A stretch of DNA of 64,000 nt, taken from contig JAOFTV010000005.1 in NCBI GenBank assembly GCA_028045305.1, positions 62,001-126,000 on the forward strand. The letters are read 5' to 3'. Below, piece after piece: positions 22,086 through 39,263 of the stretch. Each line of letters opens with the position of its first letter. Positions within the stretch are counted from its first letter, which is position 1. The notes beneath the pieces were generated by a model that was given only the letters and a program-made list of their open reading frames with translations, made no database searches and was not told where the DNA came from. Both the position numbers and the translations under genes were made by a program. The stretch is from Opitutales bacterium. Lineage in GTDB: Bacteria; Verrucomicrobiota; Verrucomicrobiia; Opitutales; Seribacteraceae.

Positions 22086-23534
22086 CTAATTTCGAACGAC
22101 TTTCACAAACTCTTGGATGACTCCATCAAAAGATCCATTGGAAAAAAACACCACCATTGATTTGAGTTTCGAAGTACTATCAAATTCATCTCGAAGAAAG
22201 TCTCCAAGTTTGCGGTTGCTCTCAAAGGCATTTGCTTGCCTACCCTTTGCCCTAATAAACTCAACGATCTCTTGGGTATCTATTCTTTTTTCTGGAGCAA
22301 TTCGTTCGGCCCTGTGAACTTGTCCAATCAAGGCATGATCAGCCAAAGCAAGGGACTCCGCGAAACGATCCTGAAAAACATTGGTCACCGCGGTATTACT
22401 ACGGGGTTCAAAACAGGCAATAATTTTTCTGTCTGGCCAACGGGACCGCAGGGATTCCAATGCTCCAGAAATTGCGGTTGGATGATGGGCGAAGTCGGAT
22501 AAGACCAATAAATTTTCCTGGTCTAATAAAACTTCCTGACGGCGCTTTACTCCCCTACAGTTCGAATAATCAATTTCTTTGGCTCCCAAAAATGGATTTT
22601 CAGAAACAGACTGCTGGTCCCGATCAAAAGATTGAACGAGGGACGCGGACAGTATAGCCATCGCTAAATTTCGGGCATTAAACAGACCAGGCATGCCAAA
22701 CCTTATCTGCCTGACCAATTCTCCCCGCCAAACCAGATCAAATTGGCTCCCAGTTATATCTTCCTCAAAGTTGGCAATTACTAAGTCGTTGGATTTTTCC
22801 ACGCCAACAGAAAATACTTCAGTCCATGGAGAATCAGGCAAGGCGAGCAGGTTAGGATCATCTCCATTTCGTAAAACATATCCATTCGATGGAACAATCC
22901 GTAAGAGATGAGAAAAACTGCGTGATATATCTGCCAAGTCCCTAAAAATATCTCCGTGATCAAATTCCAGGTTATTGAGAATCAATATGCGTGGACGATA
23001 ATGGATAAATTTGCTGCGTTTATCAAAAAATGAAGAATCATATTCATCTCCTTCAATTACAAAGGGGGCAGACAAACCACCAAGTTCATTACCAGCAGGC
23101 AGGTCGAGCGGTACTCCTCCGATCAAATAACCAGGATTTATCGCGGATGAGTGTAAGGAATATGCGGTTAGTGCGGTGGTTGTGGTTTTTCCATGAGTTC
23201 CTGCAACCACAATGGAAGGACGGTTTCCAATCAAATCCTCGCCAATTAATTGAGGCAAAGAAACAAATGGAGTCTCTCGATCAATTAAAAGTTTTTCTAC
23301 CTGTGGATTCCCCCGGGAAACTGCATTGCCCACTACCACACGGTCTGGCTGCCAGTTAGTCATTTCTTCTTCAGCAAACCCTTCAAATAATTGAATGCCA
23401 GAATCTTCCAACACCTCGGACATAGGTGGATAAACCCCAGCATCGGAACCCGCCACTTCGTGGCCCATTTTTTTGAGCAATACAGCCGCATTACCCATAG
23501 CCGTCCCACATATTCCAATAAAAAATACCCGCAT
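22086..23534 (-). CDS. mpl: UDP-MurNAc:L-Ala-gamma-D-Glu-meso-DAP ligase
   Basis: Mpl attaches the murein tripeptide recovered from old peptidoglycan back onto UDP-MurNAc, using ATP. The 482-residue protein starts VFFIGICGTAMGNAAVLLKKMGHEVAGSD, the Mur ligase N-terminal Rossmann motif in its Mpl form, and has the ATP loop VVAGTHGKTTTTALTAY near residue 110. VIEGDEYDSSFFDKRSKFIHYRP is an Mpl signature, as is SDFAHHPTAISGAL in the C-terminal domain. It implies that the organism makes and recycles meso-diaminopimelate peptidoglycan. A start at ATG 23534 is clear. It is divergent from purD with an 86-base gap. Confidence 0.94.
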   Translation of the reverse strand: MRVFFIGICGTAMGNAAVLLKKMGHEVAGSDAGVYPPMSEVLEDSGIQLFEGFAEEEMTNWQPDRVVVGNAVSRGNPQVEKLLIDRETPFVSLPQLIGEDLIGNRPSIVVAGTHGKTTTTALTAYSLHSSAINPGYLIGGVPLDLPAGNELGGLSAPFVIEGDEYDSSFFDKRSKFIHYRPRILILNNLEFDHGDIFRDLADISRSFSHLLRIVPSNGYVLRNGDDPNLLALPDSPWTEVFSVGVEKSNDLVIANFEEDITGSQFDLVWRGELVRQIRFGMPGLFNARNLAMAILSASLVQSFDRDQQSVSENPFLGAKEIDYSNCRGVKRRQEVLLDQENLLVLSDFAHHPTAISGALESLRSRWPDRKIIACFEPRSNTAVTNVFQDRFAESLALADHALIGQVHRAERIAPEKRIDTQEIVEFIRAKGRQANAFESNRKLGDFLRDEFDSTSKLKSMVVFFSNGSFDGVIQEFVKVVRN

Positions 23535-23620: not shown

Positions 23621-24907
23621 ATGAATGAAAAAAACCTTAACATTCTCGTCCTTGGCAGTGGTGGGCGCGAACACACACTTGCCAAAATCTGTTCTCAAAG
23701 TCCCCTCGTTAATGAGGTGTTAGTCGCTCCTGGCAATGGAGGTATCGAGCAGGAATTCCGTGTCCTTCCCGTAGCTGTTGAAGACAACGAAAGTATTTTA
23801 AACATAGCGAAAGCGGAAGAGATCGATCTTGTAGTGGTCGGCCCCGAAGTCCCTCTCTGCAATGGAGTGGTCGACGCCTTGAATGAAGCGGGCGTCCTTG
23901 CTTACGGGCCCAATGCAGCATGCGCAAGACTTGAGGGGAGCAAAGCATTCTCCAAAGACTTTCTTGCCCGACATAACATTCCCACCGCTGAATATGGCAA
24001 TTTTTGCGAGGTTGAACCCGCTCTTGAATATTTACAATCCTGCTCTCTACCCGTGGTGGTAAAAGCTAGTGGTTTGGCCGCCGGTAAGGGTGTGATTATT
24101 TGCAACAGTAAAGAGGAAGCGGAAACAGAGATACACGACATGCTCAGTGGAAATCGTTTTGGTGCAAGCGGAAGCGAAGTGGTGATCGAAGAATTTCTAG
24201 AAGGAGAGGAAGCCTCCCTCCATTTAATTTGTTCAGGTGAAAATTATGTTACTCTGCCAATGAGCCAGGATCATAAAAAGGTTGGCGAAGGAGATACGGG
24301 TCCTAACACCGGGGGAATGGGAGCTTATGCACCCACTTCTTTGGTGAGTCCATCCATGCTTGCCGAATATGAGGTGAGTATCGTTCGTCCAACTTTGGCC
24401 GGATTAAAGTCGGAAGGTATGGAATTTCGCGGAACCCTGTATATTGGATTAATGCTTACGAAATCGGGCCCCAAAGTGTTGGAATTTAATGTTCGCTTTG
24501 GCGATCCCGAAACCCAAGTAATTTTACCCCTGGTCGATCAAGACCTTGTTCCCGTACTTATTTCCTCGGCCAAAGGAGAACCCTTGCCTGAGCAACTCAG
24601 AATAAAACAGGAATTTGCCATGGTAGTCGTATTAGCAAGCAAAGGATATCCCGGGTCTTACCCAAAGGGAGATACAATCACCCAACCCGCCACCCTTCCC
24701 TCTTCCACTCTGCTTATTCATGCTGGAACAACCTCGACTGCCGATGGTTGTGTTGTCAGTTCTGGCGGACGTGTGCTGGGTGCTGTTGGTACTGGTAACA
24801 GCCTACAGGAAGCCAAGGAATCAGCTTACAATTTATGCGAATCCGTTGATTTTTCTTCAAAATATTACCGGAAAGATATTGGATATCGTGAATTTTCCCG
24901 TTCCTAG
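23621..24907 (+). CDS. purD: Phosphoribosylamine-glycine ligase
   Basis: PurD makes glycinamide ribonucleotide, the second step of purine synthesis. The 428-residue protein has the ATP-grasp layout: LVLGSGGREHTLAK at the N-terminus, VVVGPEVPLCNGVVDAL, KAFSKDFLARHNIPTA, VVVKASGLAAGKGVIIC with the nucleotide-binding lysines, VIEEFLEGEEASL, the QDHKKVGEGDTGPNTGGMGAY signature and the metal-binding FNVRFGDPETQ. Length is normal. It is followed 52 bases later by the phosphatase gene and then glyA. GlyA supplies glycine, so the pairing makes metabolic sense. Confidence 0.96.
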   Translation: MNEKNLNILVLGSGGREHTLAKICSQSPLVNEVLVAPGNGGIEQEFRVLPVAVEDNESILNIAKAEEIDLVVVGPEVPLCNGVVDALNEAGVLAYGPNAACARLEGSKAFSKDFLARHNIPTAEYGNFCEVEPALEYLQSCSLPVVVKASGLAAGKGVIICNSKEEAETEIHDMLSGNRFGASGSEVVIEEFLEGEEASLHLICSGENYVTLPMSQDHKKVGEGDTGPNTGGMGAYAPTSLVSPSMLAEYEVSIVRPTLAGLKSEGMEFRGTLYIGLMLTKSGPKVLEFNVRFGDPETQVILPLVDQDLVPVLISSAKGEPLPEQLRIKQEFAMVVVLASKGYPGSYPKGDTITQPATLPSSTLLIHAGTTSTADGCVVSSGGRVLGAVGTGNSLQEAKESAYNLCESVDFSSKYYRKDIGYREFSRS

Positions 24908-24959
24908 GTAGGTTCGCCCTTGCCATTAACTCGTTTGCTGATGAAAGTTAGCAAAGCAG

Positions 24960-25463
24960 ATGGGCAAGAAGAGTCGTACGAAAAAAGAGAAAAAAGAACT
25001 TAAGAAAGTTCTTTTTGTCTGCACGGCAAATGTTTGCAGAAGCCCGATGGCCGAACGTTTATTTGCCAAGGCAATGGACGAAACAAATAGTTCCCAAAAA
25101 ATCCAGGCTTATTCAGCCGGTTTATCGGCAATGGATAGCGATAAAGCATCACAAAATTCGATCGATGCCTGTGAAGAGGTTAATATCGACATTACCGATC
25201 ATCGTAGTTCTAACCTTACACGCACGTCCCTCCAGGAAGCCTCTGTTGTGTTTTGCATGACCGAATCGCACCGTACATTGATAAATATGTACTTCGAACT
25301 ACCCGAAGGCTATCCCATTTTTTTGATGAGAGAATTTTTAGAAGGAGAAACCAAGGAACTCCCAGATCCTTACGGTCAGGATATTAAGGTTTACCGTCAA
25401 TGCAGGGACCGCATGCTCGAGGCGATTCCATCTTTGATAAACTGGGTTGAGAAAAACCTCTAA
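24960..25463 (+). CDS. Low molecular weight protein phosphatase
   Basis: The 167-residue protein has the low-molecular-weight tyrosine phosphatase P-loop VLFVCTANVCRSPMAE, with nucleophile C21 and R27 of the CX5R motif, and the general-acid region LPDPYGQD near residue 138. These enzymes remove phosphate from protein tyrosine or arginine; in polysaccharide systems (Wzb type) they act on tyrosine kinases of chain-length control. The N-terminal 16 residues are unusually rich in Lys and Glu. It lies between purD and glyA on the same strand, 24 bases before glyA. An arsenate-reductase-type role cannot be excluded, but the DPYG motif favours a phosphatase. Confidence 0.88.
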   Translation: MGKKSRTKKEKKELKKVLFVCTANVCRSPMAERLFAKAMDETNSSQKIQAYSAGLSAMDSDKASQNSIDACEEVNIDITDHRSSNLTRTSLQEASVVFCMTESHRTLINMYFELPEGYPIFLMREFLEGETKELPDPYGQDIKVYRQCRDRMLEAIPSLINWVEKNL

Positions 25464-25487
25464 ATTTTTAGTCTTTATCTACATAAC

Positions 25488-26780
25488 ATGACGATCAAAA
25501 CTGATACACCATCCACCCTTCTTTCTTCCACGCTGGACGCACGTTCCCTTTCTGAGATTGATCCTCAAATCCACCAAGCAATCGAACAGGAGAGACAAAG
25601 ACAACAATCCCATATTGAACTAATTGCATCCGAAAACTTTACCCTGCCTGCAATTATCGAAGCAACAGGTAGTATATTGACCAACAAATACGCCGAAGGA
25701 TACCCCGCCAAAAGATACTATGGAGGTTGCGAACATGTTGATGTAGCTGAAAGTTTGGCGATTGAAAGGGCCAAGCGGCTTTTTGGAGCAGACCATGCAA
25801 ATGTACAGCCGCACTCTGGCAGCCAAGCCAATACCGCAGTTTACTTTGCCATGCTCCAACCGGGTGACAAGATTCTTACTATGAGTCTGCAGGACGGGGG
25901 ACACCTCACCCATGGGCATCCCAAAAATTGCAGTGGCATGCTGTACGAAGTAATTAATTACGGAGTCGACACTGCCACTGGCAGAATTGATTACGACTCC
26001 ATCGAGGCTTTGGCAGAAAAAGAAAAACCAAAGCTCATTACGGTTGGAGCTTCTGCCTATTCGAGAACGATTGATTTTGAGCGAATGGGTAAGATTGCCC
26101 GAGCCCACGATGCACTACTACTAGCTGACATTGCACATATTGCCGGATTGGTTGCTGCTGGGCTACATCCATCTCCCGTGCCCCATGCAGACTTTGTTAC
26201 CACAACCACTCACAAAACCCTGCGAGGTCCGCGGGGAGGATTAATTCTTTGTAAAGAACAGCATGCAAAAGCCATTGATTCCTCAGTTTTTCCCGGAAAC
26301 CAAGGTGGTCCGCTAATGCATGTAATAGCAGCTAAAGCTACCTGTTTTCAGGAAGCTGGAAAATCGGAATTTGTCGATTACCAAAAACAAGTAATAACAA
26401 ACGCCAGTGCAATGGCCAATGCCTTGTCTGGTCATGGGTTTCATGTCGTAAGTGGGGGCACGGATAATCACCTACTCCTCTTAGACCTTCGACCATCCCA
26501 TCCTGAGATGACCGGCAAGGTTGCACAGCTTGCACTCGAAGGAGCCAACCTTACATTAAATAGAAATACAGTTCCGGCAGAGACACGAAGTCCATTCCAA
26601 ACCAGTGGTTTGCGCATTGGAACACCTGCAGTTACCTCTAGGGGCATGAAAGTGGAGGATATGGAAATTATTGCGGAAATTATTTACGAAATTTTGCAAG
26701 CTCCAGATGATATGTCCATGCTTGAACTACAAAAAGAGAAGTCACTTGCTCTTTGTGGAAGGTTTCCTTTACCCTATTGA
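25488..26780 (+). CDS. glyA: Serine hydroxymethyltransferase
   Basis: GlyA interconverts serine and glycine with tetrahydrofolate, feeding one-carbon units and purine synthesis. The 430-residue PLP enzyme shows [15 protein letters not shown], the [20 protein letters not shown] block, [15 protein letters not shown], the cofactor aspartate and histidine in [19 protein letters not shown], and the Schiff-base lysine in [14 protein letters not shown]. The substrate-binding arginine lies in [17 protein letters not shown]. Length is normal. It follows the phosphatase gene closely. After it comes a 31-base gap and the pseudopilin gene. Confidence 0.96.
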
Positions 26781-26811
26781 TTTAAAACTAAGAACTAAAG
26801 TCTAGCACATC

Positions 26812-27528
26812 ATGAAAAAAAATAATTCTCACCGTAAAGGGTTCACACTGATCGAGCTTCTCGTTGTTATTACCATCATCGGAATATTGGCAGGCATAGC
26901 TTTTGTAGGTTTTGGAGATGTATTTGGAACTGCTGGTCGCACCGCAGCTCAAAAAAATCTCAAAACCGTTTATGAGAGCTTAGCAGCAAAAACCCGTAAT
27001 TTCCCCACTACTGATGATGTAGGATCGGCCGAAGAATTTGCTGCGTGGTTCCGCAAAAAAACCAAGGATACCAGACCCGAACTTTGGTTTCTTCCGGACG
27101 ACGAAATGGTTGTCGAACTCAACGAAGATGGTAGCGACGGTGTGCCTGCAAACATTCCAGCTGATGGAAGCGAATTTACAGCATCCCAAAAAGAAGCACT
27201 TGGCTATGCAGTAGCGGTTCCCCGTTCTGGTGATGCCAAAAGCCGCAGTTTCGTCACTAATTTAGAAAGTGGCCCCTTCCCTATCATGTGGACTGCAGGA
27301 TTGGAAGGGCAACGCTGGAGCGACAACTCGCCATGGGCCGGTGAAGGCGGGCATGTACTTTTCAGTGATGGTACAGTGAGATGGTTTGAAGAAACTTCCA
27401 AAAATGATACCGGTGTTTTCACCAAAGCTGTAGACAAAGGAGAAGATGTTCCGGAATCTTTTGAAAGTACTGAATCGATTACGGATGCGGTGCCTTCATC
27501 ATGGGAGATTTACGACGGTCGGAAGTAA
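26812..27528 (+). CDS. Type IV pilin-like (pseudopilin) protein
   Basis: The 238-residue protein has a short basic leader and the prepilin peptidase motif KGFTLIELLVVITIIGILAGIAF (cleavage after G10), followed by the hydrophobic N-terminal helix of type II secretion pseudopilins and type IV pilins. The remainder is a globular domain with GEGGHVLFSDGTVRWF near residue 180, a pattern also seen in the many H-X9-DG prepilin-like proteins of Verrucomicrobiota and Planctomycetota. No prepilin peptidase or secretion genes are nearby, so it probably uses a system encoded elsewhere. Function beyond membrane-tethered surface or secretion role is unknown. Confidence 0.85.
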   Translation: MKKNNSHRKGFTLIELLVVITIIGILAGIAFVGFGDVFGTAGRTAAQKNLKTVYESLAAKTRNFPTTDDVGSAEEFAAWFRKKTKDTRPELWFLPDDEMVVELNEDGSDGVPANIPADGSEFTASQKEALGYAVAVPRSGDAKSRSFVTNLESGPFPIMWTAGLEGQRWSDNSPWAGEGGHVLFSDGTVRWFEETSKNDTGVFTKAVDKGEDVPESFESTESITDAVPSSWEIYDGRK

Positions 27529-27549
27529 TCTCACAATTTCTACACTTAC

Positions 27550-29565
27550 GTGGGCAAAACCACAGTCCGCGGAACTCTGTCCTTTGGTCGCAATGGACGC
27601 TCGCGAGTTATTTTTGAAGATAGCAGCGATTCGATATCCTTAGCTCGCGGAAACAGCGGTACTGGTCTGCATGGTGACATAGTTGAATTATTCAGACTCC
27701 CACCCAAAAAAAAAGACCGAAAGAAAAAGGGTACAAAACCAAAACCTCCTAGGTACGAAGTTGGAAAAATCGTAAAGCGCAATACCGACGAATTCCTTGG
27801 TCATTTTAGCCAAGAAATTGGCCGTCCAATGGTGCGCTCAGAAAATTCGCGTGTACCTGTCCCTTTTAAAGTTATGGGGGACACAAGAAATGCTCAGGAA
27901 CAGGATAAGGTGCTGGTCAAATTTGTACGATGGGAAGCTCCATCCCGTGTGCCAACCTGCAGGATCATCAAAGTCCTCGGTCCCGGAAACGATGCCCGAA
28001 CCGATCACAAGGGTATTCTTGCCAAATATGGACTCTCCCAATCATTCCCTCCTAAAGTAGAGGAGGAAGCCAAAGCCTTTGGAGAAAAGGTAACAGCAAA
28101 GGATCGAAAGGGAAGAAAGGATATGCGTAATATTTTCACCCTCACGATCGATCCATTGGACGCTCGCGATTTTGACGACGCGATTTCTATGAACATGCTA
28201 GATAAAGGTGAGTTCGAGATAGGGGTACACATTGCCGATGTATCTCATTATGTAAAACGTGGTTCCTCATTGGATAATGAAGCTAGAAAACGAGCGAACT
28301 CCACTTATCTTGTTGGGGAAGTCGTCCCCATGCTCCCACACTCTTTATCTAGCGGAATATGCAGTTTGGTGGAGGGAGAAGAACGCTTGGTAAAATCTGT
28401 TATTTTCCGGTTCTCTGCAAACTTCGAACTCCTGGGAAACCACCTTTTTGAATCTGTTATTCGAAGTGACAAAAGACTCACTTACGAACAAGCACTGCTC
28501 TTCTTGAAAAAAGAAAGTTTGAAAGAAATTCTCGAGGTATCCCCTCCGCCGAGTCGATATTCGGGCAATCCCGGTATCCCGCTAAAAGATGTTAACGAAT
28601 CCATTCTTCAAAAAATTCATCAAACCGTTCAAGCACTTGGCAAAATCGCCGCATCTCTTCGCCATAAAAGAATGGAGAACGGATCTTTGGAACTTTCTTC
28701 TTTCGAGGTAAAAATTCTCGTTGATGATATGGGACAACCTGAAAAGATTTATCAAAATACGGGTGACGAAAGCCATCAATTGATCGAGGAATTCATGCTT
28801 TTGGCCAACCAAACAATAGCCCGCCAAACTCGCAAACGAAGGCTTCCTGTAGTATACCGCACTCACCCCGACCCCGACCCTGACAACTTGCAAGAATTAA
28901 GACACTTCATGTCTCTCTTTGGCATAACCTGTGGAGAATTAACCATTCGCAAAGAAGTGAAAAAAATGCTCGCACAGATCAAGCGATCTCCCATTTCACA
29001 AGTATTAAGAATCAAATTTCTTCGGAGTTTGCAACAGGCCTGCTACCGGGCTAGTCCGGACGGGCATTATGGATTGGCAATGCAAGATTATCTGCATTTC
29101 ACCTCACCCATTCGCAGGTATGCAGATTTAGTCACACATCGTGCGGTTGAATCAATAATCAGAAAGAACTCCAATAAAAACTCCTCAACAGAATCTCTCG
29201 AAGGACTGGCTAAGAAACTTTCGGTAAGTGAAAGAAACAGTATAGATGCGGAACGGGAATCCGTAAAAGACAAATTAATCTTGTATTACAAACGGGACTT
29301 GGAAAGTAGAAAACCCGTTAAACATGAAGCTTTAATTACTGAGATAAATCGGCGTGGATTTTTCGTAGAATTGACGCTGACTCTTGCCCGTGGCTTTGTT
29401 CCCATTCGTACCTTACCCCGGGAACTCGGTTATCGAATGACTTCAAGTGGGACATCTTTGGTAGGAAGAAACCCAAAGAACAAATTAAAAATTGGACAGT
29501 CTTTAATGGTTCAAATTGATAAGATCAATGCCCTGGACAAGCAAATGGACTTTCGTCTGGTCTGA
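27550..29565 (+). CDS. rnr: RNase R family 3'-5' exoribonuclease
   Basis: A 671-residue RNase II/RNB superfamily exoribonuclease that degrades structured RNA. It begins with OB-fold cold-shock-like domains (about 1-160), then the RNB catalytic domain from about 190: TLTIDPLDARDFDDAISM carries the catalytic aspartates, VHIADVSHYVKRGSSLDNEA follows, then the LANQTIAR helix, YRTHPDPDPDNL, and the late HFTSPIRRYADLVTHRAV motif. A C-terminal S1 RNA-binding domain ends the protein. The start is GTG at 27550 in the same frame as the preceding pilin gene, 21 bases after its TAA stop. There is no obvious ribosome binding site. RNase II cannot be fully excluded, but the domain order fits RNase R. Confidence 0.9.
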   Translation: MGKTTVRGTLSFGRNGRSRVIFEDSSDSISLARGNSGTGLHGDIVELFRLPPKKKDRKKKGTKPKPPRYEVGKIVKRNTDEFLGHFSQEIGRPMVRSENSRVPVPFKVMGDTRNAQEQDKVLVKFVRWEAPSRVPTCRIIKVLGPGNDARTDHKGILAKYGLSQSFPPKVEEEAKAFGEKVTAKDRKGRKDMRNIFTLTIDPLDARDFDDAISMNMLDKGEFEIGVHIADVSHYVKRGSSLDNEARKRANSTYLVGEVVPMLPHSLSSGICSLVEGEERLVKSVIFRFSANFELLGNHLFESVIRSDKRLTYEQALLFLKKESLKEILEVSPPPSRYSGNPGIPLKDVNESILQKIHQTVQALGKIAASLRHKRMENGSLELSSFEVKILVDDMGQPEKIYQNTGDESHQLIEEFMLLANQTIARQTRKRRLPVVYRTHPDPDPDNLQELRHFMSLFGITCGELTIRKEVKKMLAQIKRSPISQVLRIKFLRSLQQACYRASPDGHYGLAMQDYLHFTSPIRRYADLVTHRAVESIIRKNSNKNSSTESLEGLAKKLSVSERNSIDAERESVKDKLILYYKRDLESRKPVKHEALITEINRRGFFVELTLTLARGFVPIRTLPRELGYRMTSSGTSLVGRNPKNKLKIGQSLMVQIDKINALDKQMDFRLV

Positions 29566-29613
29566 TCTTTCTTGCTCCTGCATTGATCTTCGCTTATCGG
29601 TGCGTCGATTCTC

Positions 29614-30141
29614 ATGTCTTATCAATTTCATCAACAATTATCCCGTGTTTGGGAAAAAGCAGTATCTCTTTATTGTGCCGGTAATTCGCATGCAGACACT
29701 TTTCCTATTGAAAATGACATGCCTCGGTTAAACAGCTGGGGAATCAAAAAAATCGACATCTTTGATTATGCAGAGGATTGGTGCCTGTATCAAGAACCTG
29801 ACCTTCTCACCTTTGTGCTGGTGCACTATGAGAGATATTCTTATTTCCTTGAAGAACAACATGGCATGTTTTCCCAAGAACAGATCAACCCTGCCGAATT
29901 GCCGCACAAATCAGAGAAGGTTGTTGGGGTTGTATGGTTGCCAAGAATTCTGCCCAAAGCACGGGCGAAATTAAGAGGAGAACTTCCCTCCGAAGTCATG
30001 TACGGATGTGGTGGAGACCGTCATTTTTTTCAAACCAACAATATTCATCCCGCTGAATTCCTTAGAATTACCCGCCGATACATGAATGATGATCAGGCAA
30101 TCATTCAATGGGTATTGAATAGGAAAAATTCACAAACTTAA
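29614..30141 (+). CDS. DUF5069-type protein
   Basis: The 175-residue protein has the motif VVWLPRILPKARAKLRGELP near residue 108, matching the DUF5069 pattern of Verrucomicrobiota and Planctomycetota, and a later HPAEFLRITRRYMND. The N-terminal half has no recognised motif; it is rich in aromatic residues. No signal peptide or membrane segment is seen, so it is probably cytosolic. Function is unknown. It sits 48 bases after RNase R and 30 bases before the DapF homologue on the same strand. The family match rests on one motif. Confidence 0.6.
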   Translation: MSYQFHQQLSRVWEKAVSLYCAGNSHADTFPIENDMPRLNSWGIKKIDIFDYAEDWCLYQEPDLLTFVLVHYERYSYFLEEQHGMFSQEQINPAELPHKSEKVVGVVWLPRILPKARAKLRGELPSEVMYGCGGDRHFFQTNNIHPAEFLRITRRYMNDDQAIIQWVLNRKNSQT

Positions 30142-30171
30142 TAATAATTCTGGCTCCAAACTTATCATCTT

Positions 30172-31014
30172 ATGATTTTTGAAAAATACCACGCTCTTGG
30201 AAACGACTACCTCGTCTATGATCCTCGCACCACAAACCATGAATTTTCTATCGAAGAAACCGTTCGTATTTGCCATAGGAACTTTGGATTGGGATCGGAC
30301 GGTATTCTTGTTGGTCCCCTTCCCTCAAACAAAGCAGAGTTTGGACTACGCATTCTCAACCCCGATGGTAGCGAAGCGGAAAAAAGTGGCAATGGCTTAC
30401 GTATATTTGCCAGGTATTTGCGGGATTCCAAATTAGTAAGCGATCAACCTTTTAGCGTGGACACCCTTGGAGGAGTTGTGACATGCGAGGTTTCAAATGA
30501 CAAATCTGTTATTTCAGTAGAAATGGGAACAGTAAGTTTTCACAGTGAGGTAATCCCAATTTCTGTGGATGGAAATCCTCGGGAAATATTAAATGAAGAA
30601 ATCAAACTTTCTGATACATCATTTACTTACTTTGGGGCGACAATTGGCAATCCTCATTGCGTTGTCCCCCTAGAAAAAGTGTCAGAATCAATCGCCCGCA
30701 AATACGGGACAGAACTAGAAAATCATAAAAACTTTCCAAACCGTACAAATGTTCAATTTCTTCAGGTCATTAACCGTAACCGCATAAAAATAGAAATTTG
30801 GGAGCGAGGAGCAGGATACACTCTTGCTTCCGGTAGCAGCAGTTCGGCAGCAGGTGCGGTAGCTCGAAAAATGGGGGCTTGTGATGAAGAGATTACTGTT
30901 GAAATGCCTGGAGGAGAGATTTTCCTGCACATCGATCAGAAATATAATGTGCTCATGAAAGGGTCAGCCACCCGAGTTGGTCAAATGATCCTTGCCCCTG
31001 AATGCTTGTCTTGA
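30172..31014 (+). CDS. DapF-family epimerase homologue with both catalytic Cys replaced by Ser
   Basis: The 280-residue protein has the diaminopimelate epimerase fold and length, with FEKYHALGNDYLVYD, NPDGSEAEKSGNGLRIFARYL and ERGAGYTLASGSSSSAAGAV. In DapF the two catalytic residues are cysteines, in the CGNG and ACGTG motifs. Here they are Ser72 (AGT) and Ser220 (TCC). With Ser at both positions the usual two-base thiol racemisation would be lost or much weaker. It may catalyse another proton transfer, act on another substrate or be a non-catalytic homologue. I have not given the symbol dapF for that reason. It follows the DUF5069 gene and precedes the ribosomal genes. Confidence 0.85.
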   Translation: MIFEKYHALGNDYLVYDPRTTNHEFSIEETVRICHRNFGLGSDGILVGPLPSNKAEFGLRILNPDGSEAEKSGNGLRIFARYLRDSKLVSDQPFSVDTLGGVVTCEVSNDKSVISVEMGTVSFHSEVIPISVDGNPREILNEEIKLSDTSFTYFGATIGNPHCVVPLEKVSESIARKYGTELENHKNFPNRTNVQFLQVINRNRIKIEIWERGAGYTLASGSSSSAAGAVARKMGACDEEITVEMPGGEIFLHIDQKYNVLMKGSATRVGQMILAPECLS

Positions 31015-31066
31015 TCACATTGGACTTACTTGCTGTCGATTTTGGTTGCCGAAATTCAAACTGGCT

Positions 31067-31135
31067 ATGGATGAGGAAACCAAGATCGAACTTGCCAAGA
31101 AGCTAAGAAATTGGTTTTTTAGAGGATTTCCTTAA
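31067..31135 (+). CDS. Possible 22-residue leader peptide upstream of rplU
   Basis: A short ORF ([22 protein letters not shown]) ends 4 bases before the rplU ATG. It has an ATG and an even charge pattern but no strong ribosome binding site. It could be a translated leader coupled to rplU, or chance. It lies in a 125-base gap in which I see no other feature. Confidence 0.25.
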
Positions 31136-31139
31136 AACC

Positions 31140-31457
31140 ATGAAAGCCACTATCCGCACCCAAGGCAGTCAGTTCGTCGTTGAAAAAGGCGACAAGCTAT
31201 TTGTTAACCGCTATCCCGAAACCAAAGAAGGTGATCAAGTCAAGATCGATGATGTCCTCATGTTAGTTGAGGACGGCAAGTCAACATTTGGATCACCTAC
31301 AGTTGAAGGGGCATCCGTAACTGCCAAAATTCTTGAAAACAAAAAGGACAAGAAAGTAATGGTTTTCAAAAAGAAACGCCGTCAAGGCTACAAGCGTAGA
31401 CGTGGTCATCGCCAGCTCTTATCCGTCATCGAGATCGAATCAATCGATCATAAATAA
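31140..31457 (+). CDS. rplU: 50S ribosomal protein L21
   Basis: A 105-residue protein with the L21 layout: [21 protein letters not shown] at the N-terminus, [32 protein letters not shown] in the middle, and the RNA-binding [21 protein letters not shown] near the end. L21 binds 23S rRNA in the large subunit. It directly precedes rpmA, the normal order in bacteria. Start ATG 31140. Confidence 0.97.
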
Positions 31458-31483
31458 TTTCAGACTAAACACACACTTTTGTC

Positions 31484-31729
31484 ATGGCACATAAAAAAGG
31501 ACAGGGAACTTCAAGAAACGGACGCGACAGCAACAGCAAACGATTGGGAGTCAAAAAATTCGGTGGCGAATCTGTACTCGCGGGAAACATTATTCTGCGC
31601 CAACGTGGAACTAAATACCATCCGGGAAAAAATGTTGGACTGGGAAAAGACTTTACCCTCTTTGCACTCACTCCCGGAAAGGTAGAATTTGACAAACCCC
31701 ACAGATTGGTAAACGTCGTCTCTAACTGA
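31484..31729 (+). CDS. rpmA: 50S ribosomal protein L27
   Basis: An 81-residue protein starting [20 protein letters not shown], the hallmark L27 N-terminus that reaches the peptidyl transferase centre, then [28 protein letters not shown]. The start begins directly with AHKKG and no longer propeptide is present. It lies 26 bases after rplU. In many bacteria obgE follows, but here the next gene codes for a YceH-like protein. Confidence 0.97.
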
Positions 31730-31781
31730 ATCGGTACTTTTTCCCTTTCCTTTTGGGTTGTTTGGTTAGCAACAAATTAAG

Positions 31782-32525
31782 ATGCTTGAACCAAACTCAG
31801 ATAGTTCACAGGATGAAAATTCTGAGTATGCAGACTCCGCTAAGGATGATCTTGTACAGTTAAATTTTGAGGAAACGAGGGTACTTGCTTCTTTGATAGA
31901 AAAGGAGTTAACCACTCCAGAGTACTACCCAATGAGTCTCAATGGCTTAGTCAATGCTTGCAACCAAAAGAACAACCGACTTCCAAAGACGAGCTTAGAC
32001 GACGATCAAATTAATCGTGCAATTGAAGACTTAAGAATAAAAAGACTTGTGCATCGTGTCGATTTAGTGGGTTCACGAGTTCCCAAATTTCAACACAATG
32101 CCGAAAAGGAACTCGATTTAATCAAAGCAGAAAGAGCCCTTATTGCCGAACTCCTAAACCGTGGACCTCAAACTGGTGGAGAACTGAATAATCGGGCAGA
32201 CCGGATGTTCGAATTCGATGGTTTACAGGATGTCGAAGACACCCTGACAGATATGATGGAACGTACACCGAGTTTGGTCGGCTTGATGGAAGCTAGACCC
32301 GGCCAAAAAGAATCACGCTGGTTTCACAAGTTTGCCCCTCCTCCTCAACTCGAAGAATTGAATGATGGCAGTGCAGTTTACGTCCCAGCACCTGATCAAA
32401 GGCTTGACCAATTGGACAATGTACTTTCAGAATTTAATGATTTAAAAGAAGAGGTCGAAGCTTTGCGCTACCAAGTTAGAGAATTAACCGACGATTTTCG
32501 GAATTTTCGCAAGCAATTTGAATAA
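31782..32525 (+). CDS. YceH family (DUF480) protein
   Basis: The 247-residue protein matches the YceH/DUF480 family: NFEETRVLASLIEKELTTPEYYPMSLNGLVNACNQKNNR near residue 30, then the second winged-helix part with LLNRGPQTGGELNNRADRMFEF near residue 130. Two wHTH-like domains are expected from the family. The acidic N-terminal 25 residues look disordered. The C-terminus ends in a coiled-coil stretch (LRYQVRELTDDFRNF). Function is unknown in bacteria in general. It follows rpmA by 52 bases on the same strand and ends 29 bases before the convergent fcl gene. Confidence 0.85.
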   Translation: MLEPNSDSSQDENSEYADSAKDDLVQLNFEETRVLASLIEKELTTPEYYPMSLNGLVNACNQKNNRLPKTSLDDDQINRAIEDLRIKRLVHRVDLVGSRVPKFQHNAEKELDLIKAERALIAELLNRGPQTGGELNNRADRMFEFDGLQDVEDTLTDMMERTPSLVGLMEARPGQKESRWFHKFAPPPQLEELNDGSAVYVPAPDQRLDQLDNVLSEFNDLKEEVEALRYQVRELTDDFRNFRKQFE

Positions 32526-32554
32526 GACCTTCTGAAAGAGGGAAGCCTTGTGGA

Positions 32555-33496
32555 TTAGAGACGGGTTGTACCAGACTGCAATCCTGTCAAAAAGTCATCA
32601 TACGCTGACTTCACACCTTCCTCAAAAGCTATATTTGCCTTCCATCCCAATGAGTTAATCAAGGAAACATCAAGCCTTTTTACGAGCATGCCATCAAGTT
32701 TATCAAGGTCGTGAGTGATTGCACCTTCAAATCCTATTGTTTTCTTAACTAAATGAGCAATTTCTAAAATCGAATGATCTGTGCCCGTACCAAGGTTTAC
32801 CCAGTCAGGAGGTTGCTCCATTCCCAGAAGAAACAGCACTCCACTCGCAAGATCATCCACATGCATTAACTCGCGCCGAGGTTTGCCCGTCCCCCAGATC
32901 ATAACTTCATCTGCTCCGTTTTCCTTAGCCTCATGAAAACGCCGGATTAGCGCAGGTAAAACATGGGAGTTTTCCCCATGATAGTTATCTCCAGGACCAT
33001 ATAGGTTCGTGGGCATAGCACTGTGATAAAGTACCCCGTATTGGTTTCGATAATGCCGGCACATTTCCAAGCCCGCAATTTTAGCAAGGGCGTAAGCCTC
33101 ATTAGTTTTCTCCAAAGGACCAGTTAGAAGATACTCTTCCTTGATCGGCTGTTCACAAGCACGCGGGTATATGCAGGAACTTCCCAAATTCAAAACGCGT
33201 CCGACTTCATTCTCCCAAGCTGCATGGATCAAATTTGTATTGATTAATAGATTTTGATGAATGAATTCAGCAGGATAGGTATTATTGGCATGAATACCCC
33301 CAACCTTTGCCGCAGCATTAATTACAATATCAGGCTGTTCCAACCTTATAAATTCAGAAACCGCAGATTGGCTTAGTAAATCAAGCTCATTGCGCGAAAC
33401 CAATAACAATTCATAATTGGCCGCTTGTTCCTTAAATGCACGTACCAAGGCAGAACCAACCATGCCGCGGTGCCCGCTGACAAAAATTTTTAACAT
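32555..33496 (-). CDS. fcl: GDP-L-fucose synthase
   Basis: Converts GDP-4-keto-6-deoxy-D-mannose to GDP-L-fucose by epimerisation and NADPH reduction. The 313-residue SDR-type protein has [18 protein letters not shown] as nucleotide-binding loop, [21 protein letters not shown], the catalytic LGSSCIYP serine and cysteine, and [23 protein letters not shown] with the YxxxK pair. All are diagnostic of Fcl/WcaG. Its ATG overlaps the gmd stop by one base (TAATG). With gmd it gives a complete GDP-mannose to GDP-fucose branch, used for surface polysaccharide. Confidence 0.95.
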
Positions 33497-34512
33497 TAAG
33501 CGAGGTTTGCTTGAGCCAAAGCCTGTTCCTGCTTGGCAATTTTCATGTCTTCTTCAACCATTAAAGACACAAGGTCCTTGAATGTAGTCTTGGGCTCCCA
33601 GCCCAATTGCTCCTTCGCTTTTTGTGGATTACCAATCAATAAGTCGACTTCTGCCGGACGCTCGTATTTTTGATCGAATCCAACATATTCATTCCAGTCC
33701 ATATCCAAGCATGCAAATGTTTCTTCAAGAAATTCCCGGACTGTATGAGTCTCATTGGTTGCAATAACGAAATCATCTGGTTTGTCCTGCTGAAGCATAA
33801 GCCACATGGCTTCCACATATTCCTTGGCATATCCCCAATCTCTTTTTGAATCTAAATTTCCAAGAATTAATTTCTTTTGCAGTCCCAGTTTTATACGGGT
33901 AGCAGCCCGGGTAATTTTTCGGGTGACAAAGGTTTCGCCACGGCGTGGAGATTCGTGATTAAACAAAATGCCACTACTGGCATGCATGCCGTAAGATTCC
34001 CGATAATTAACTGTTAACCAATGGGCATATACCTTTGCACAGGCATAAGGTGAACGCGGCCAAAAAGGAGTAGTTTCAACCTGAGGTACTTCCTGTACCT
34101 TACCATACATCTCTGAGGAAGATGCTTGATAATACCTGACCTTTTTCACAAGACCAGCCTCCCGAATCGCTTCCAAAATACGAACAGCAGCCAACCCCGT
34201 AACATCACCAGTATACTCTGGAATATCAAATGACACCCGTACATGGCTCTGCGCACCTAGGTTATAAATCTCGTCAGGTTGTAATTCGTAAAGCAATTTA
34301 ACCAATTGTACGGCATCAGCCAAATCACCGTAATGAAGATAAAGGTTCGTGTTATCGACTAACGGGTCCTTATAGAGATGATCCAATCGATCGGTATTAA
34401 AAGTGGATGCACGACGGACAATCCCATGTACTTCATATCCTTTATCGAGAAGAAGTTCGGCAAGATAAGATCCATCCTGACCAGTAATTCCAGTTACGAG
34501 AGCTTTTTTCAT
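33496..34512 (-). CDS. gmd: GDP-mannose 4,6-dehydratase
   Basis: First enzyme of the GDP-fucose branch: makes GDP-4-keto-6-deoxy-D-mannose with bound NADP. The 338-residue protein has [72 protein letters not shown] with the active-site residues, and [12 protein letters not shown] with the YxxxK motif. The C-terminal [20 protein letters not shown] is also typical. Its 124-base upstream region, shared with the divergent tRNA-Val, holds its promoter. Length is slightly shorter than the E. coli enzyme. Confidence 0.95.
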
Positions 34513-34594
34513 AAGCTTTACTTAAATCTTATTCTTAAATCATCGTAAAGAGCGTATACTCTAAAAATTGAACGAGGTTTATCTTTCAACTACA

Positions 34595-34622
34595 TTGACT
34601 TAAACATCTTCTCTTCTATCAT
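34595..34622 (+). promoter_or_regulatory. Promoter of tRNA-Val
   Basis: A -35 box TTGACT (34595-34600) and a -10 box TATCAT (34617-34622) are separated by 16 bases, both 5 of 6 to consensus. The tRNA starts 15 bases after the -10 box, so this is a good sigma-70-type promoter for it. Confidence 0.65.
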
Positions 34623-34636
34623 AGGTATTTTAATTT

Positions 34637-34713
34637 GGGGGATTAGCTCAGTTGGTTAGAGCGCATGCATGACACGCATGAGGTCGCTGGTTCGAATCCA
34701 GTATCTCCCACCA
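34637..34713 (+). tRNA. tRNA-Val (anticodon GAC)
   Basis: A 77-base cloverleaf can be folded by eye: acceptor GGGGGAT / ATCTCCC, D-stem GCTC / GAGC, anticodon stem CATGC / GCATG around loop ATGACAC, T-stem GCTGG / CCAGT around TTCGAAT, discriminator A and an encoded CCA end. The loop gives anticodon GAC, which reads GUC and GUU valine codons. Confidence 0.95.
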
Positions 34714-34743
34714 CTTTTTAAGCTTATTTTTCAAAAAAAAAGA

Positions 34744-34929
34744 ATGTCCCAAAGCCGTAGCAAAATTGAATGGATTATAATTATTGGTTTAACCATTCTA
34801 TTCGGGGTAATTTGGTTGTTTGCACATTGGAATCTTTCCCGCAAACCTCCTTATCACAAAGGCCCGGGAAGCCCAGGTTATGTTGACCCCGCACCCCCGC
34901 CCTCCTCAAAAAGTTACCTTAGTGACTAA
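34744..34929 (+). CDS. Small single-pass membrane protein
   Basis: A 61-residue ORF starting MSQSRSKIEW with one clear membrane helix (IIIIGLTILFGVIWLFAHW) and a Pro-rich, positively charged tail with GPGSPGYVDPAPPPSS. No family recognised. The frame is open upstream into the tRNA, so the start ATG 34744 is the first reasonable one after it. Its stop overlaps the GTG of the following dehydrogenase reading frame by 8 bases, which suggests coupled translation. The broken downstream gene makes the purpose unclear. Confidence 0.55.
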   Translation: MSQSRSKIEWIIIIGLTILFGVIWLFAHWNLSRKPPYHKGPGSPGYVDPAPPPSSKSYLSD

Positions 34930-35599
34930 ACTCGTTTGTATAAGCGGATGTTCGCGTGGCTTAGGCAGGGCCATGGCAATTGAATTTTCTAAAAGAGGTT
35001 GGAGAGTAGCTGGTGGTGCCCGTAATGCCATTGCACTCGACGAACTAAAGGCCGAGCTAACCACCGAACATTTCTTTTATCCTTTTGACACCACTTAACC
35101 AGTAGAAGTCGAGACTTTTGCAAATTTAACTGAGCAAGCATTGGGCGTTCCCGACCTTTTGGTAAATAATGCCGGATTGATCAATAAAAACGCGCCCCTT
35201 ACTCAAGTTCAACCCGATGAATTTGCCTCAGTCTTAGCAGTAAACCTAGGAGGCATTCACAATATGATTCGGGCTTTTGTCCCAATGATGGAAAAAGCGG
35301 GTCGCGGAATCATTGCAAATTTCAGTTCCTATTGGGTACAATCCACCGCCCCCGAAGTTGGCCCATACTGTGCCACAAAATGGGGAGTTGAGGGATTAAC
35401 CCGTTCACTTGCTCAGGAACTTCCCAGTGACTTAGGCACCGTTGCTTTTAATCCTGGAGTTATCAACACTGACATGTTGCGTTCAACCTTTGGAGACCAA
35501 GCATTAGCATATCCATGTCCAAAAGATTGGGCAAAGGGTGCTGTTACCCGCTTAGAAAAACTGTCTCCTTCAGACAATGGAAATTCTTCCAACCCATAA
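34922..35599 (+). pseudogene. Short-chain dehydrogenase interrupted by one in-frame TAA
   Basis: The reading frame from GTG 34922 to the stop at 35597-35599 codes for a complete short-chain dehydrogenase apart from one TAA at 35096-35098, after codon 58. The halves stay in the same frame, so a single substitution is enough to explain it (for example CAA to TAA). Before it: LVCISGCSRGLGRAMAIEF, the TGxxxGxG-type NAD(P) loop. After it: LLVNNAG, SSYWVQS and the catalytic YCATKWG (YxxxK). All active-site residues are kept, so the lesion looks recent, or is a sequence error, or is read through. Typical SDR length (about 225). The 35141-35599 piece has its own ATG but lacks the cofactor loop. Confidence 0.85.
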
Positions 35600-35656
35600 A
35601 TTAATTATTTATTTTTTTTGCTTTCCCAAAATCGAAAGAAGAGAGATAGTTTTTAT

Positions 35657-35956
35657 ATGCTCATACACTCCGTGATTTTTTGGCTCAAAAAGAACCTTAC
35701 AGAGGAAGATATCATCTTGTTTGAACAAAACGTTCGTTTACTAGAGAAGATTTCCGCCGTTGAGCAACTATTTGTCGGTCGCCCTTCAGCGACCGCCAAG
35801 CGCCCCGTTATTGACGACTCTTACGATTTCTGCCTCACGGTTGTACTAAAAAATTTAGCGGCCCACGATGCGTATCAACAAGACCCCTTACACTTGGATT
35901 TTATAAACAGGTGTTCCCACATGTGGGAACGAGTTAAGATTTACGACGCTGATTAG
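35657..35956 (+). CDS. Dabb domain (stress-responsive A/B barrel) protein
   Basis: A 99-residue protein starting MLIHSVIFWLKKNLTEED, the usual start of the Dabb family, with FVGRPSATAKRPVIDDSYDFCLTVVLKNLAAHDAYQQDPLHLDFI, the histidine-containing second half. Dabb proteins are small ferredoxin-like dimers of mostly unknown role. I chose ATG 35657 because the family begins with MxxHxVxFW; the frame is open back to 35618. It lies 57 bases after the broken dehydrogenase on the same strand and may belong to its transcript. Confidence 0.8.
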   Translation: MLIHSVIFWLKKNLTEEDIILFEQNVRLLEKISAVEQLFVGRPSATAKRPVIDDSYDFCLTVVLKNLAAHDAYQQDPLHLDFINRCSHMWERVKIYDAD

Positions 35957-36003
35957 TCTGCCAATATCCGCCTGGATAAAATTAACTCTCTAATATTGGT
36001 TAA

Positions 36004-36273
36004 CTAAAGGACGATAGCAAGTTTGCTTGCTTCTTGCGGACTTTCCCTAAGGGCGGTTTTAAACTCCTCGATATCAAAGTCGGCAACTATAAAATCTCCA
36101 TTTTTAAGGGTGGGTGTCTTGGTCTGACCACTTATGGCTTCAAGTTCTGACATGCGCGAAGGATCTGTCCGAACATCAACCAATTCGACTTCCAATCCAA
36201 CTTTTGAAAAGTATTCAAGTGCATCGGCACACCAAGGGCAGCCTTGTTTAACATATAATATTGGTTTACTCAT
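36004..36273 (-). CDS. Glutaredoxin-like protein
   Basis: An 89-residue thioredoxin-fold protein with active site GCPWCADAL near residue 11, TPTL cis-proline segment near 53 and a short final helix. Glutaredoxins reduce disulfides or mixed glutathione disulfides in the cytosol. The CPWC motif and small size fit the glutaredoxin/NrdH group. The lone position, divergent from the UvrA-family gene and convergent with the Dabb gene, says little about the partner. Confidence 0.82.
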   Translation of the reverse strand: MSKPILYVKQGCPWCADALEYFSKVGLEVELVDVRTDPSRMSELEAISGQTKTPTLKNGDFIVADFDIEEFKTALRESPQEASKLAIVL

Positions 36274-36372
36274 CCAGATTTACTTAAGCAGAAGACTGCT
36301 TTTCGCAATCAACTTCTTTGAATCCGGCTTGTCCCTTGCGTATTCCGCCAGCATTATGGTGTTAACGACTTA

Positions 36373-39255
36373 ATGAACCCATCCGTCCAATCATCTCCCT
36401 TTCATGCAAAAAATATTTTTGTTAAGGGTGCCAGGGAAAATAATTTGCGCGAGGTTACGGTATCTTTCCCAAGAGGTAAATTGGTAGGGGTGACGGGAGT
36501 GAGCGGATCAGGGAAATCATCTTTGGTATTTGATGTTTTGGCAGCGGAGGGACACCGAAAATACGTTGAGAGTTTATCAACCAAAGCGAGACAAGCTTTA
36601 GAAAAGGTCGCCAGACCGGATGTTGATTTTGTCGAAGGTCTATCTCCTGTACTTTCAATTGAGCAAATATCTGCGAGATCTGCAGGCCCTCGCAGTACTG
36701 TAGCCACAGCAACCGAGATTGCAGACTATGCCCGTTTGTTATGGGCAACTGCAGGTACGCCCCATTGCCCAAAAGACGGATCTCCTGTTACTCGAAGATC
36801 ACTAGATCTATGCGTGGAGGAACTCATGCACAAAGGAATGGGCAAAAGATTAATCCTTTTAGCGCCTTGGATGAATGCCAAGGCCTCGGTACTTCGTGAA
36901 GAAGCGGAAGGCTTGGAAAGGCGAGGCTTCCAACGATTGCGCATTAATGGAAAAATTAAGCGACTTGATGATCATGATCTAATCCCCTCTGGCACCAGAG
37001 GAAAAGAAATATCTGTAGATCTGGTAATCGATCGCTTGGCCATAAAGGAGGATTCCAGAAGCCGCCTCGCAGATTCTCTTGAACTGGCATTTGAGGAGGG
37101 AGAGGAGCGAGCTCTTGCTTTGATCGAACAAGCGGACGGAGAGATGGAGGAAGTTCCCCTTTCAGAAGGATTTGCCTGTAATACGTGTGGATCGACCTAC
37201 CCTACCCCTACCCCGAAACTTTTTTCATGGAACCATCCTGACGGGGCCTGTTCGAATTGTGGAGGACTGGGAGAAGTTCTTCGCTTCAGAGAGGATTTAA
37301 TCATCCCGGATCCTACAATTTCTTTAAATAAAGGAGCGATTAAGCCTTGGCGGTTGGGTTCCCGCAAGATGATCACTTTGCGAAAAAATTTGCTCAAGGC
37401 ATTGTCTGAACAAATGGGTTTGGACTTAAAAAAGCCATGGAATAAATTATCCAAAAAGGAGCAAAAGTTTTTACTGCACGGCGATAAGGATCAAAACTTT
37501 GAAATTAAACTGGAATTTGGACGTGGTAAAAAGGCAAAGATACAACCGTTCCCTGGAGTATTTGAAGATCTCCAGGAAACCATGCGTTCTACGACCAGTG
37601 ACAACCTGCGAGCCAAATTAGTTACTTACCAATACGGGACAATTTGCGAACCTTGCAAAGGTAGCCGACTTTCCTCCTATTCACGATCTGTCCTTCTAGC
37701 TGGGTGTTCATTAGAAGATTTTTTTTCCTGGCCCACGGCACAGGCCTGGGAGTTCATCCAAAAAAAAGCTCGTAAGGATGAGAGCTGTTTACAAGTCGAA
37801 GATGCTTTGCACGGTCTTGAACAGCGCCTTGGTTTTATTAATAAAGTTGGCCTTGGTTACTTAGGGCTTGATCGGCCTTATCGAAGTTTAAGCGGTGGAG
37901 AGGCCCAACGTGCCCGACTCGCCACCCAATTGGGCATGGGCCTCGTTGGAGTGATTTATGCCCTCGACGAACCGAGTGTGGGCCTGCACCCTGCCGATCA
38001 TGATCGATTAATCAAAGTATTGCTGGGCTTAAGAGACCGTGGAAATACGGTGATCGTGGTGGAGCACGATGCAGAAACCTTGAGAGCTTGCGATCATTTG
38101 ATCGAAGTGGGTCCTGGTCCTGGTACCGAAGGAGGAAATTTAATTTTTGAAGGAGATTTAAGGGCTTGTATTAAATCTAAGGAAAGTAGGAGTGGTTCCT
38201 TTCTTTGTGGTGAAGAAAAAATCGAACGGGATGGGAAAGCAAAAAAACCCGGTATAGCATGTATTTTGGTCAAGCAGGCACGTGCAAATAACCTGCAAAA
38301 AATTGATGCCTCCTTTCCGGTTGGTCTATTAACGGTAGTTTGTGGAGTATCTGGCTCCGGAAAGAGTTCTTTGGTTAATGAAGTTTTGGCGAAATCTGCT
38401 GCTCACGAACTTCACCGGTCAAAACAATTACCTGGAGCACATGGAGGGATTGAAGGAATTGAAAATTTTGATCAGGCAGTCAGGATTGATCAGTCTCCCA
38501 TCGGAAAAAGTCCGAGATCCAATCCAGCGACCTATGTTAAATTGTTTGATCAGTTGCGCAGTCTCTTTTCCAAATGTTCTCTGAGTAAAATTCGTGGGTA
38601 CGGGCCAGGACGTTTTAGCTTTAATATACCTGGTGGACGGTGTGAAAGATGTAAAGGGGATGGCTTGGTCAAACTGGACATGCAATTCCTGGCCGATGTT
38701 TATGTGGAATGCGAGAGTTGTCATGGTAAACGCTATAATCGAGAAACCCTGGAAGTTCGCTATCGTGGAAGAAATATTTCTGAGGTTCTTGAACTGACGG
38801 TTTCTGAAGCCAAAGAATTATTTTCCAAACACCCTGCTATTATTAATAAGTTGGAGACCTTGGATGCTGTGGGACTTGGGTATTTAAAACTCGGACAGGC
38901 TGCCAATACCTTGTCTGGTGGAGAAGCCCAACGCCTAAAACTTTCCTTAGAACTTAGCCGAAAACAAAGCGGGCGGACCCTTTATCTTTTGGATGAACCC
39001 ACTACCGGTCTCCACTGGGCAGACATTCAGCGCCTGCTCGATTTACTCTTTAAATTAAGAGATGGCGGAAATACTCTTGTTGTAATCGAGCACAATTTGG
39101 ATGTTGTTCGATTGGCCGACCATGTGATTGAAATCGGACCAGGCGGAGGCAAAGCTGGCGGAAAATTGATTTTCGAGGGAACTCCCGAACAACTTGCAAA
39201 AGAAAATACCCCCACCGGGAAATTCCTTGCCAAACACCTCGCTCAATTCGCATAA
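36373..39255 (+). CDS. uvrA: UvrA-family excinuclease ATPase, divergent
   Basis: The 960-residue protein has the two nucleotide-binding halves of UvrA: GVSGSGKSSLVFDVLAAEGHRKYVESLSTKARQ (Walker A about 47), the first signature SLSGGEAQRARLATQLG with LDEPSVGLHPAD, then a second Walker A GVSGSGKSSLVNEV and TLSGGEAQRLKL with LLDEPTTGLHWAD. Zinc-finger cysteines CNTCG...CSNCG and CERCKGDG...CESCHGK are kept, and the UvrB-binding region (about 130-250) is present. UvrA finds helix-distorting DNA damage for UvrB/UvrC. The SLSTKARQALEK and IEQISARSAGP segments differ from the usual SLSAYARQFL and IDQK forms, so it may be a second UvrA paralogue. Confidence 0.85.
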   Translation: MNPSVQSSPFHAKNIFVKGARENNLREVTVSFPRGKLVGVTGVSGSGKSSLVFDVLAAEGHRKYVESLSTKARQALEKVARPDVDFVEGLSPVLSIEQISARSAGPRSTVATATEIADYARLLWATAGTPHCPKDGSPVTRRSLDLCVEELMHKGMGKRLILLAPWMNAKASVLREEAEGLERRGFQRLRINGKIKRLDDHDLIPSGTRGKEISVDLVIDRLAIKEDSRSRLADSLELAFEEGEERALALIEQADGEMEEVPLSEGFACNTCGSTYPTPTPKLFSWNHPDGACSNCGGLGEVLRFREDLIIPDPTISLNKGAIKPWRLGSRKMITLRKNLLKALSEQMGLDLKKPWNKLSKKEQKFLLHGDKDQNFEIKLEFGRGKKAKIQPFPGVFEDLQETMRSTTSDNLRAKLVTYQYGTICEPCKGSRLSSYSRSVLLAGCSLEDFFSWPTAQAWEFIQKKARKDESCLQVEDALHGLEQRLGFINKVGLGYLGLDRPYRSLSGGEAQRARLATQLGMGLVGVIYALDEPSVGLHPADHDRLIKVLLGLRDRGNTVIVVEHDAETLRACDHLIEVGPGPGTEGGNLIFEGDLRACIKSKESRSGSFLCGEEKIERDGKAKKPGIACILVKQARANNLQKIDASFPVGLLTVVCGVSGSGKSSLVNEVLAKSAAHELHRSKQLPGAHGGIEGIENFDQAVRIDQSPIGKSPRSNPATYVKLFDQLRSLFSKCSLSKIRGYGPGRFSFNIPGGRCERCKGDGLVKLDMQFLADVYVECESCHGKRYNRETLEVRYRGRNISEVLELTVSEAKELFSKHPAIINKLETLDAVGLGYLKLGQAANTLSGGEAQRLKLSLELSRKQSGRTLYLLDEPTTGLHWADIQRLLDLLFKLRDGGNTLVVIEHNLDVVRLADHVIEIGPGGGKAGGKLIFEGTPEQLAKENTPTGKFLAKHLAQFA

Positions 39256-39263
39256 GATTAGAG

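Follow-up and report, generated by a model that had tools for sequence, protein, structure and literature searches.

The window (the whole 64,000-nucleotide stretch analysed) encodes a predicted DapF-type protein on the forward strand and an Mpl-like ligase on the reverse strand. The features referred to in the text are as follows.

22086–23534, reverse strand: Mpl-like murein peptide ligase, indicating a meso-DAP peptidoglycan context; TIGR01081 (mpl) is the best NCBIfam match, at 351 bits, which is below the cut-off of 388.7
30172–31014, forward strand: predicted Ser/Ser DapF-type diaminopimelate epimerase of 280 amino acids, with ATG start and TGA end; TIGR00652 and PF01678 matches and AF2 model
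30382–30384, forward strand: codon of Lys71, clade-specific and adjoining Ser72; Met, Thr, Leu or Gln in Cys/Cys enzymes
30385–30387, forward strand: Ser72 codon AGT, site of catalytic Cys73 (Haemophilus influenzae numbering), directly before helix 73–85 in the model
30802–30807, forward strand: Glu211-Arg212, equivalents of Glu215/Arg216, which grip the distal DAP end in Anabaena DapF (PMC12039745); invariant in the clade
30817–30819, forward strand: codon of Tyr216, clade-specific and four residues before Ser220; Glu, Val, Ile or Asn in Cys/Cys enzymes
30829–30831, forward strand: Ser220 codon TCC, site of catalytic Cys217 (H. influenzae numbering), directly before helix 221–233 in the model

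Immediately upstream of dapF is a DUF5069 gene (29614–30141); L052, a locus from the same family, has a relative of it in the same position, and at locus L066 another is found about 3.6 kb upstream. The sole RNA family match (Rfam) within 24000–40000 was a tRNA gene at 34637–34710.

The predicted protein scored 232.1 bits against the NCBIfam DapF model TIGR00652 (curated cut-off 114.65) and 177 bits against Pfam DAP_epimerase PF01678 (cut-off 34.7). Its AF2 model (pLDDT 93.4) superposes on solved DapF structures at Z scores of 33–36 and has the two-half pseudosymmetric DapF fold (Z of 36.5 to 8qzy_A and 33.7 to 9mro_A). Identity over the structure matches to DapF and O-ureidoserine racemase was 25–35%; members of the proline racemase superfamily (4HypE, t3HypD) share the fold at Z scores of no more than 27.4 and 11–17% identity. 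Both the textbook and the recent account of DapF rest on a thiol/thiolate pair. This two-cysteine feature was tested and is absent from the window protein, which has Ser72 and Ser220 in its place and was therefore not classed as a canonical Cys/Cys epimerase.

Alignment with solved DapFs places Ser72 on the first catalytic cysteine (SEAEKSGNG against SEPEMCGNG) and Ser220 on the second (TLASGSSSS against TLACGTGAC). The first-pass annotation, which had reported that both cysteines are replaced and that the serine codons differ (AGT and TCC), was correct on both counts. It had also argued that the double substitution is no chance error, and this holds: the same serines are found in every congener and the codons switch between AGY and TCN at both sites, so that chance or sequencing error is ruled out. 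Among 171 distinct Ser/Ser sequences, Ser72 is encoded by AGY in 122 and by TCN in 49, and Ser220 by TCN in 154 and by AGY in 17. Although one base change would turn AGC or TCC into a cysteine codon, cysteine was restored at neither site in any of these sequences. Two further residues accompany the serines, Lys71 and Tyr216, each kept in 170 of the 171 sequences (the exceptions being Ile71 in L046 and Asn216 in L129) and neither was seen in the Cys/Cys copies read. Tyr13 and Ser42 are likewise frequent in the Ser/Ser clade, but they are not diagnostic, being shared by some Cys/Cys copies. The divergent copy L046 comes from a reduced genome of 0.9 Mb (G041, 93% complete), in which no MurE or LysA match was found.

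The 233 DapF copies that were read comprised 207 Ser/Ser and 26 Cys/Cys copies and no mixed Ser/Cys copy. A tree had been proposed at first pass as a check for a Ser/Ser clade, and such a clade exists and is large: after removal of the catalytic columns and the columns coupled to them, the 66 Ser/Ser rows of a 92-row tree formed one side of one branch (SH-aLRT 100). The clade extends from Opitutales to other Verrucomicrobiota families, cyanobacteria (Fortiea, Dulcicalothrix, Westiellopsis, Aphanothece), planctomycetes (the complete genome of Adhaeretor mobilis and one Sedimentisphaerales MAG) and a few MAGs labelled Deltaproteobacteria, Proteobacteria or SAR324. A motif scan of contigs contributed 80 loci, which are skewed to the Ser/Ser type because DGSEAEKS and KYHALGND served as scan motifs; the genome searches do not have this bias. 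In four cyanobacterial genomes the Ser/Ser copy stands alongside a canonical DapF, which suggests that the two types may not be fully interchangeable there. Dulcicalothrix desertica (G385) carries two Ser/Ser copies and one Cys/Cys DapF (L162, L176, L181), and the Cys/Cys copy of genome G342 has an intact frame with a stop at its natural end. As to whether the Ser/Ser form is a known subfamily, NCBIfam has no model of its own for the clade, and no description was found in the searchable literature, from which subscription journals are mostly excluded. On the sequence evidence, the Ser/Ser DapF appears to be a distinct and apparently undescribed variant of DapF.

A second, Cys/Cys DapF was found neither in the window genome (77% complete) nor in seven congeners (85–94% complete), which agree with it in having no second DapF of any kind that we could find. 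Genome content was compared across 204 Opitutales genomes, comprising the window genome and others of at least 95% completeness, and in most of the 204, complete ones included, the sole DapF is of the Ser/Ser type. Among 57 relatives, a second copy (Cys/Cys, L049) is present in G008 alone; another genome, G042, has a single Cys/Cys DapF (L050) and no Ser/Ser copy. About 22 Opitutales genomes have, in place of the Ser/Ser type, only a distant DapF match (E values of 1e-14 to 1e-23), which is probably Cys/Cys, as read in G042 and judged from the score in the others.

Ddh (meso-DAP dehydrogenase) yields meso-DAP without DapF. No DapF match was obtained in 11 of the 204 genomes, and Ddh is present in 8 of these 11 versus 5 of the 193 with DapF (Fisher P = 3e-9; 8e-4 if genus g39 is reduced to a single entry). 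The eight genomes represent about three independent losses (g39, G051 and G462): the congeners of G051 (G414, G416, G417) have a close Ser/Ser-like DapF match, and those of G462 (G134, G463) have both DapF and Ddh. Three genomes of 95–97% completeness (G333, G415, G515) have neither a DapF match nor Ddh, possibly because of missing assembly or another route to meso-DAP; DapL is present in G333. The product of DapL is LL-DAP. The window genome has DapL above the cut-off (557 bits), as do most of the Ser/Ser genomes that were checked; the four DapF-less Ddh genomes checked gave no match of that strength. The window genome also encodes MurE with the DNPR motif (PMC3681970) and a LysA-like gene that scores below its cut-off. 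This combined pattern of Ddh, DapL, MurE and the LysA-like gene is what would be expected if the Ser/Ser protein makes meso-DAP. The first-pass annotation had reasoned from Mpl that a real DAP epimerase is needed somewhere, and we judge it right that a source of meso-DAP is required; its interpretation as a whole is partly supported. As to an epimerase elsewhere, no second DapF was found in the genome, in its congeners or in most of the order, while genomes that lack the Ser/Ser type mostly carry Ddh if they are DapF-less and otherwise a distant DapF.

The DAP contacts of Anabaena DapF are N13, N66, N77, N164, N197, E215 and R216, together with backbone groups (PMC12039745). Their equivalents in the window protein (N11, N63, N74, N160, N193, E211 and R212) hardly vary across the clade, with Ser at 193 in L200. 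Because all DAP-contacting residues are kept, the earlier suggestion of another substrate is unsupported, and of its two proposals, another substrate or a new mechanism, the second is the better. Several DapF-like proteins have proved to have other substrates (PMC11602996, PMC8225329), but it is most improbable that the window protein is a racemase or epimerase of that kind, like HisR, CntK, DcsC and PddB within the DapF fold: contacts to both ends of the substrate are preserved, the score exceeds the DapF equivalog cut-off, and no conserved or specialised gene cluster surrounds Ser/Ser dapF across the 14 loci compared (cyanobacterial, planctomycete and other). The model for CntK (histidine racemase CntK/HisR, cut-off 300 bits) did not match the window protein at any E value up to 0.001 and gave 18.9 bits for the cyanobacterial Ser/Ser copy L060.

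We consider it likely that the window gene encodes the cell's working DAP epimerase, converting LL-DAP to meso-DAP, and that it belongs to a distinct DapF clade in which Ser72 and Ser220 replace the thiol/thiolate pair. Like the canonical cysteines, the two serines would occupy the N-terminal ends of the two central helices, one on either side of the substrate alpha-carbon; one would accept the alpha proton and the other would give one back from the opposite face. Probable effects of Lys71 and Tyr216, acquired with the serines, are on the pair's charge or pKa, and the extra substitutions of the clade may be what enables serine to work. With much lower probability, the protein is a DAP epimerase in which Lys71, Tyr216 or both do the acid/base work and the serines merely shape the pocket. 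The tight coupling of both residues to the serines and their absence from Cys/Cys copies would fit this, as would the location of the residue preceding the first cysteine in a loop that curves around the substrate (PMC12039745). However, each of the two residues has an exception in the clade whereas the serines have none, and the crystal structure of a Ser/Cys epimerase of the superfamily has serine on one substrate face (PMC4113996).

We also lean, with less assurance than for the function itself, towards a further view: cofactor-independent 1,1-proton transfer at an amino-acid alpha-carbon would be carried out by a naturally occurring Ser/Ser pair without any thiol, and most of the order would obtain its meso-DAP from this source alone. 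An alcohol is a far weaker acid than a thiol, which weighs against Ser/Ser catalysis. So do the C67S and C209S mutants of the Cys/Cys relative HisR, which lost most of their activity and had greatly reduced turnover (PMC11602996), and no Ser/Ser enzyme of such a kind was found in the literature searched. The HisR mutants would also suit a protein that no longer epimerises DAP but binds it in some other role, the wall then containing LL-DAP or a different diamino acid. The canonical copy retained beside the Ser/Ser copy in cyanobacteria points the same way, as does the wall chemistry of these bacteria: DAP was for a long time reported to be lacking in them, as in Coraliomargarita (PMC3035286), and ornithine is present in hydrolysates (PMC5303756, PMC3035286). 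Such a loss is nevertheless unlikely, given the MurE DNPR motif and the LysA-like gene and, in addition, the presence of Ddh in most genomes that lost Ser/Ser dapF, since such a replacement is not expected for a pseudoenzyme. In Lacunisphaera and Opitutus, DAP was later detected by GC/MS at about one tenth of the Escherichia coli level, and thin-layer chromatography of Opitutaceae gave no DL-DAP, the isomer being left unassigned in that study (PMC5303756); the recent Opitutia species papers that we searched contain no report of DAP stereochemistry. Scarce DAP would fit a slow enzyme and would fit other causes as well. The Ser/Ser DapF is relevant to the long-standing question of why DAP is scarce or goes undetected in Opitutales.

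A working DAP epimerase at this locus is compatible with a second activity. The protein could possibly, though this is not the reading we favour, supply both meso-DAP and D-glutamate like the DapF of Chlamydia trachomatis, which has both activities (PMC5885031), and this would explain the absence of MurI in most of the genomes that carry it. MurI is missing from the window genome and from most Ser/Ser genomes tested, and is present in five of six DapF-less Ddh Opitutales (G199, G226, G347, G525, G462). This pattern is not significant once genus g39 is collapsed (P = 0.16), however, and MurI is also missing from Opitutales without a Ser/Ser copy (G042, G274, G503, G522). The window protein moreover scored just 66.1 bits against the bifunctional DapF/glutamate racemase model NF038284, for which the cut-off is 350.

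If true, catalysis by a thiol-free Ser/Ser pair would run counter to the idea that a thiolate base is indispensable in this enzyme family. Because the clade is large and natural, lacks both thiols, keeps all substrate contacts and mostly occurs as the sole copy in the genomes read, it allows this requirement to be tested directly. The clade is also relevant to inhibition: aziridine-type DapF inhibitors form a bond with the catalytic cysteines (PMC12039745), and Ser/Ser proteins have no cysteines at these sites.

The closest known systems are the canonical DapF enzymes of Anabaena (9MRO), Arabidopsis thaliana (3EJX), H. influenzae (1GQZ), E. coli (4IJZ) and Pseudomonas aeruginosa (8QZY), with which the window protein shares the fold (at the Z scores given above), the DAP-contacting residues, the catalytic positions at helix termini and the place in the pathway. 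It differs from them in the change of both cysteines to serine, in the clade-specific Lys71 and Tyr216 and in overall sequence (about 32–36% identity). Engineered counterparts exist in the H. influenzae DapF mutants C73S (2Q9H) and C217S (2Q9J), whose positions match Ser72 and Ser220; these are laboratory single mutants of a Cys/Cys enzyme, whereas the window protein has a natural double change with accompanying substitutions. Within the superfamily fold, the 4-hydroxyproline 2-epimerase B9JQV3 of Agrobacterium vitis (4LB0) is active with a Ser93/Cys pair, so that serine is able to replace one catalytic cysteine in an active two-base epimerase (PMC4113996); in contrast to the Ser/Ser window protein it has one serine and one cysteine, acts on another substrate and is 13% identical to the window model. 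A thiol-free pair, Ser90/Thr256, is found in the 3-hydroxyproline dehydratase B9K4G4 (4K7G), which has the fold in common and in which serine is the proposed base (PMC4113996), but that enzyme catalyses a one-base dehydration of 3-hydroxyproline, as opposed to epimerisation on two faces.
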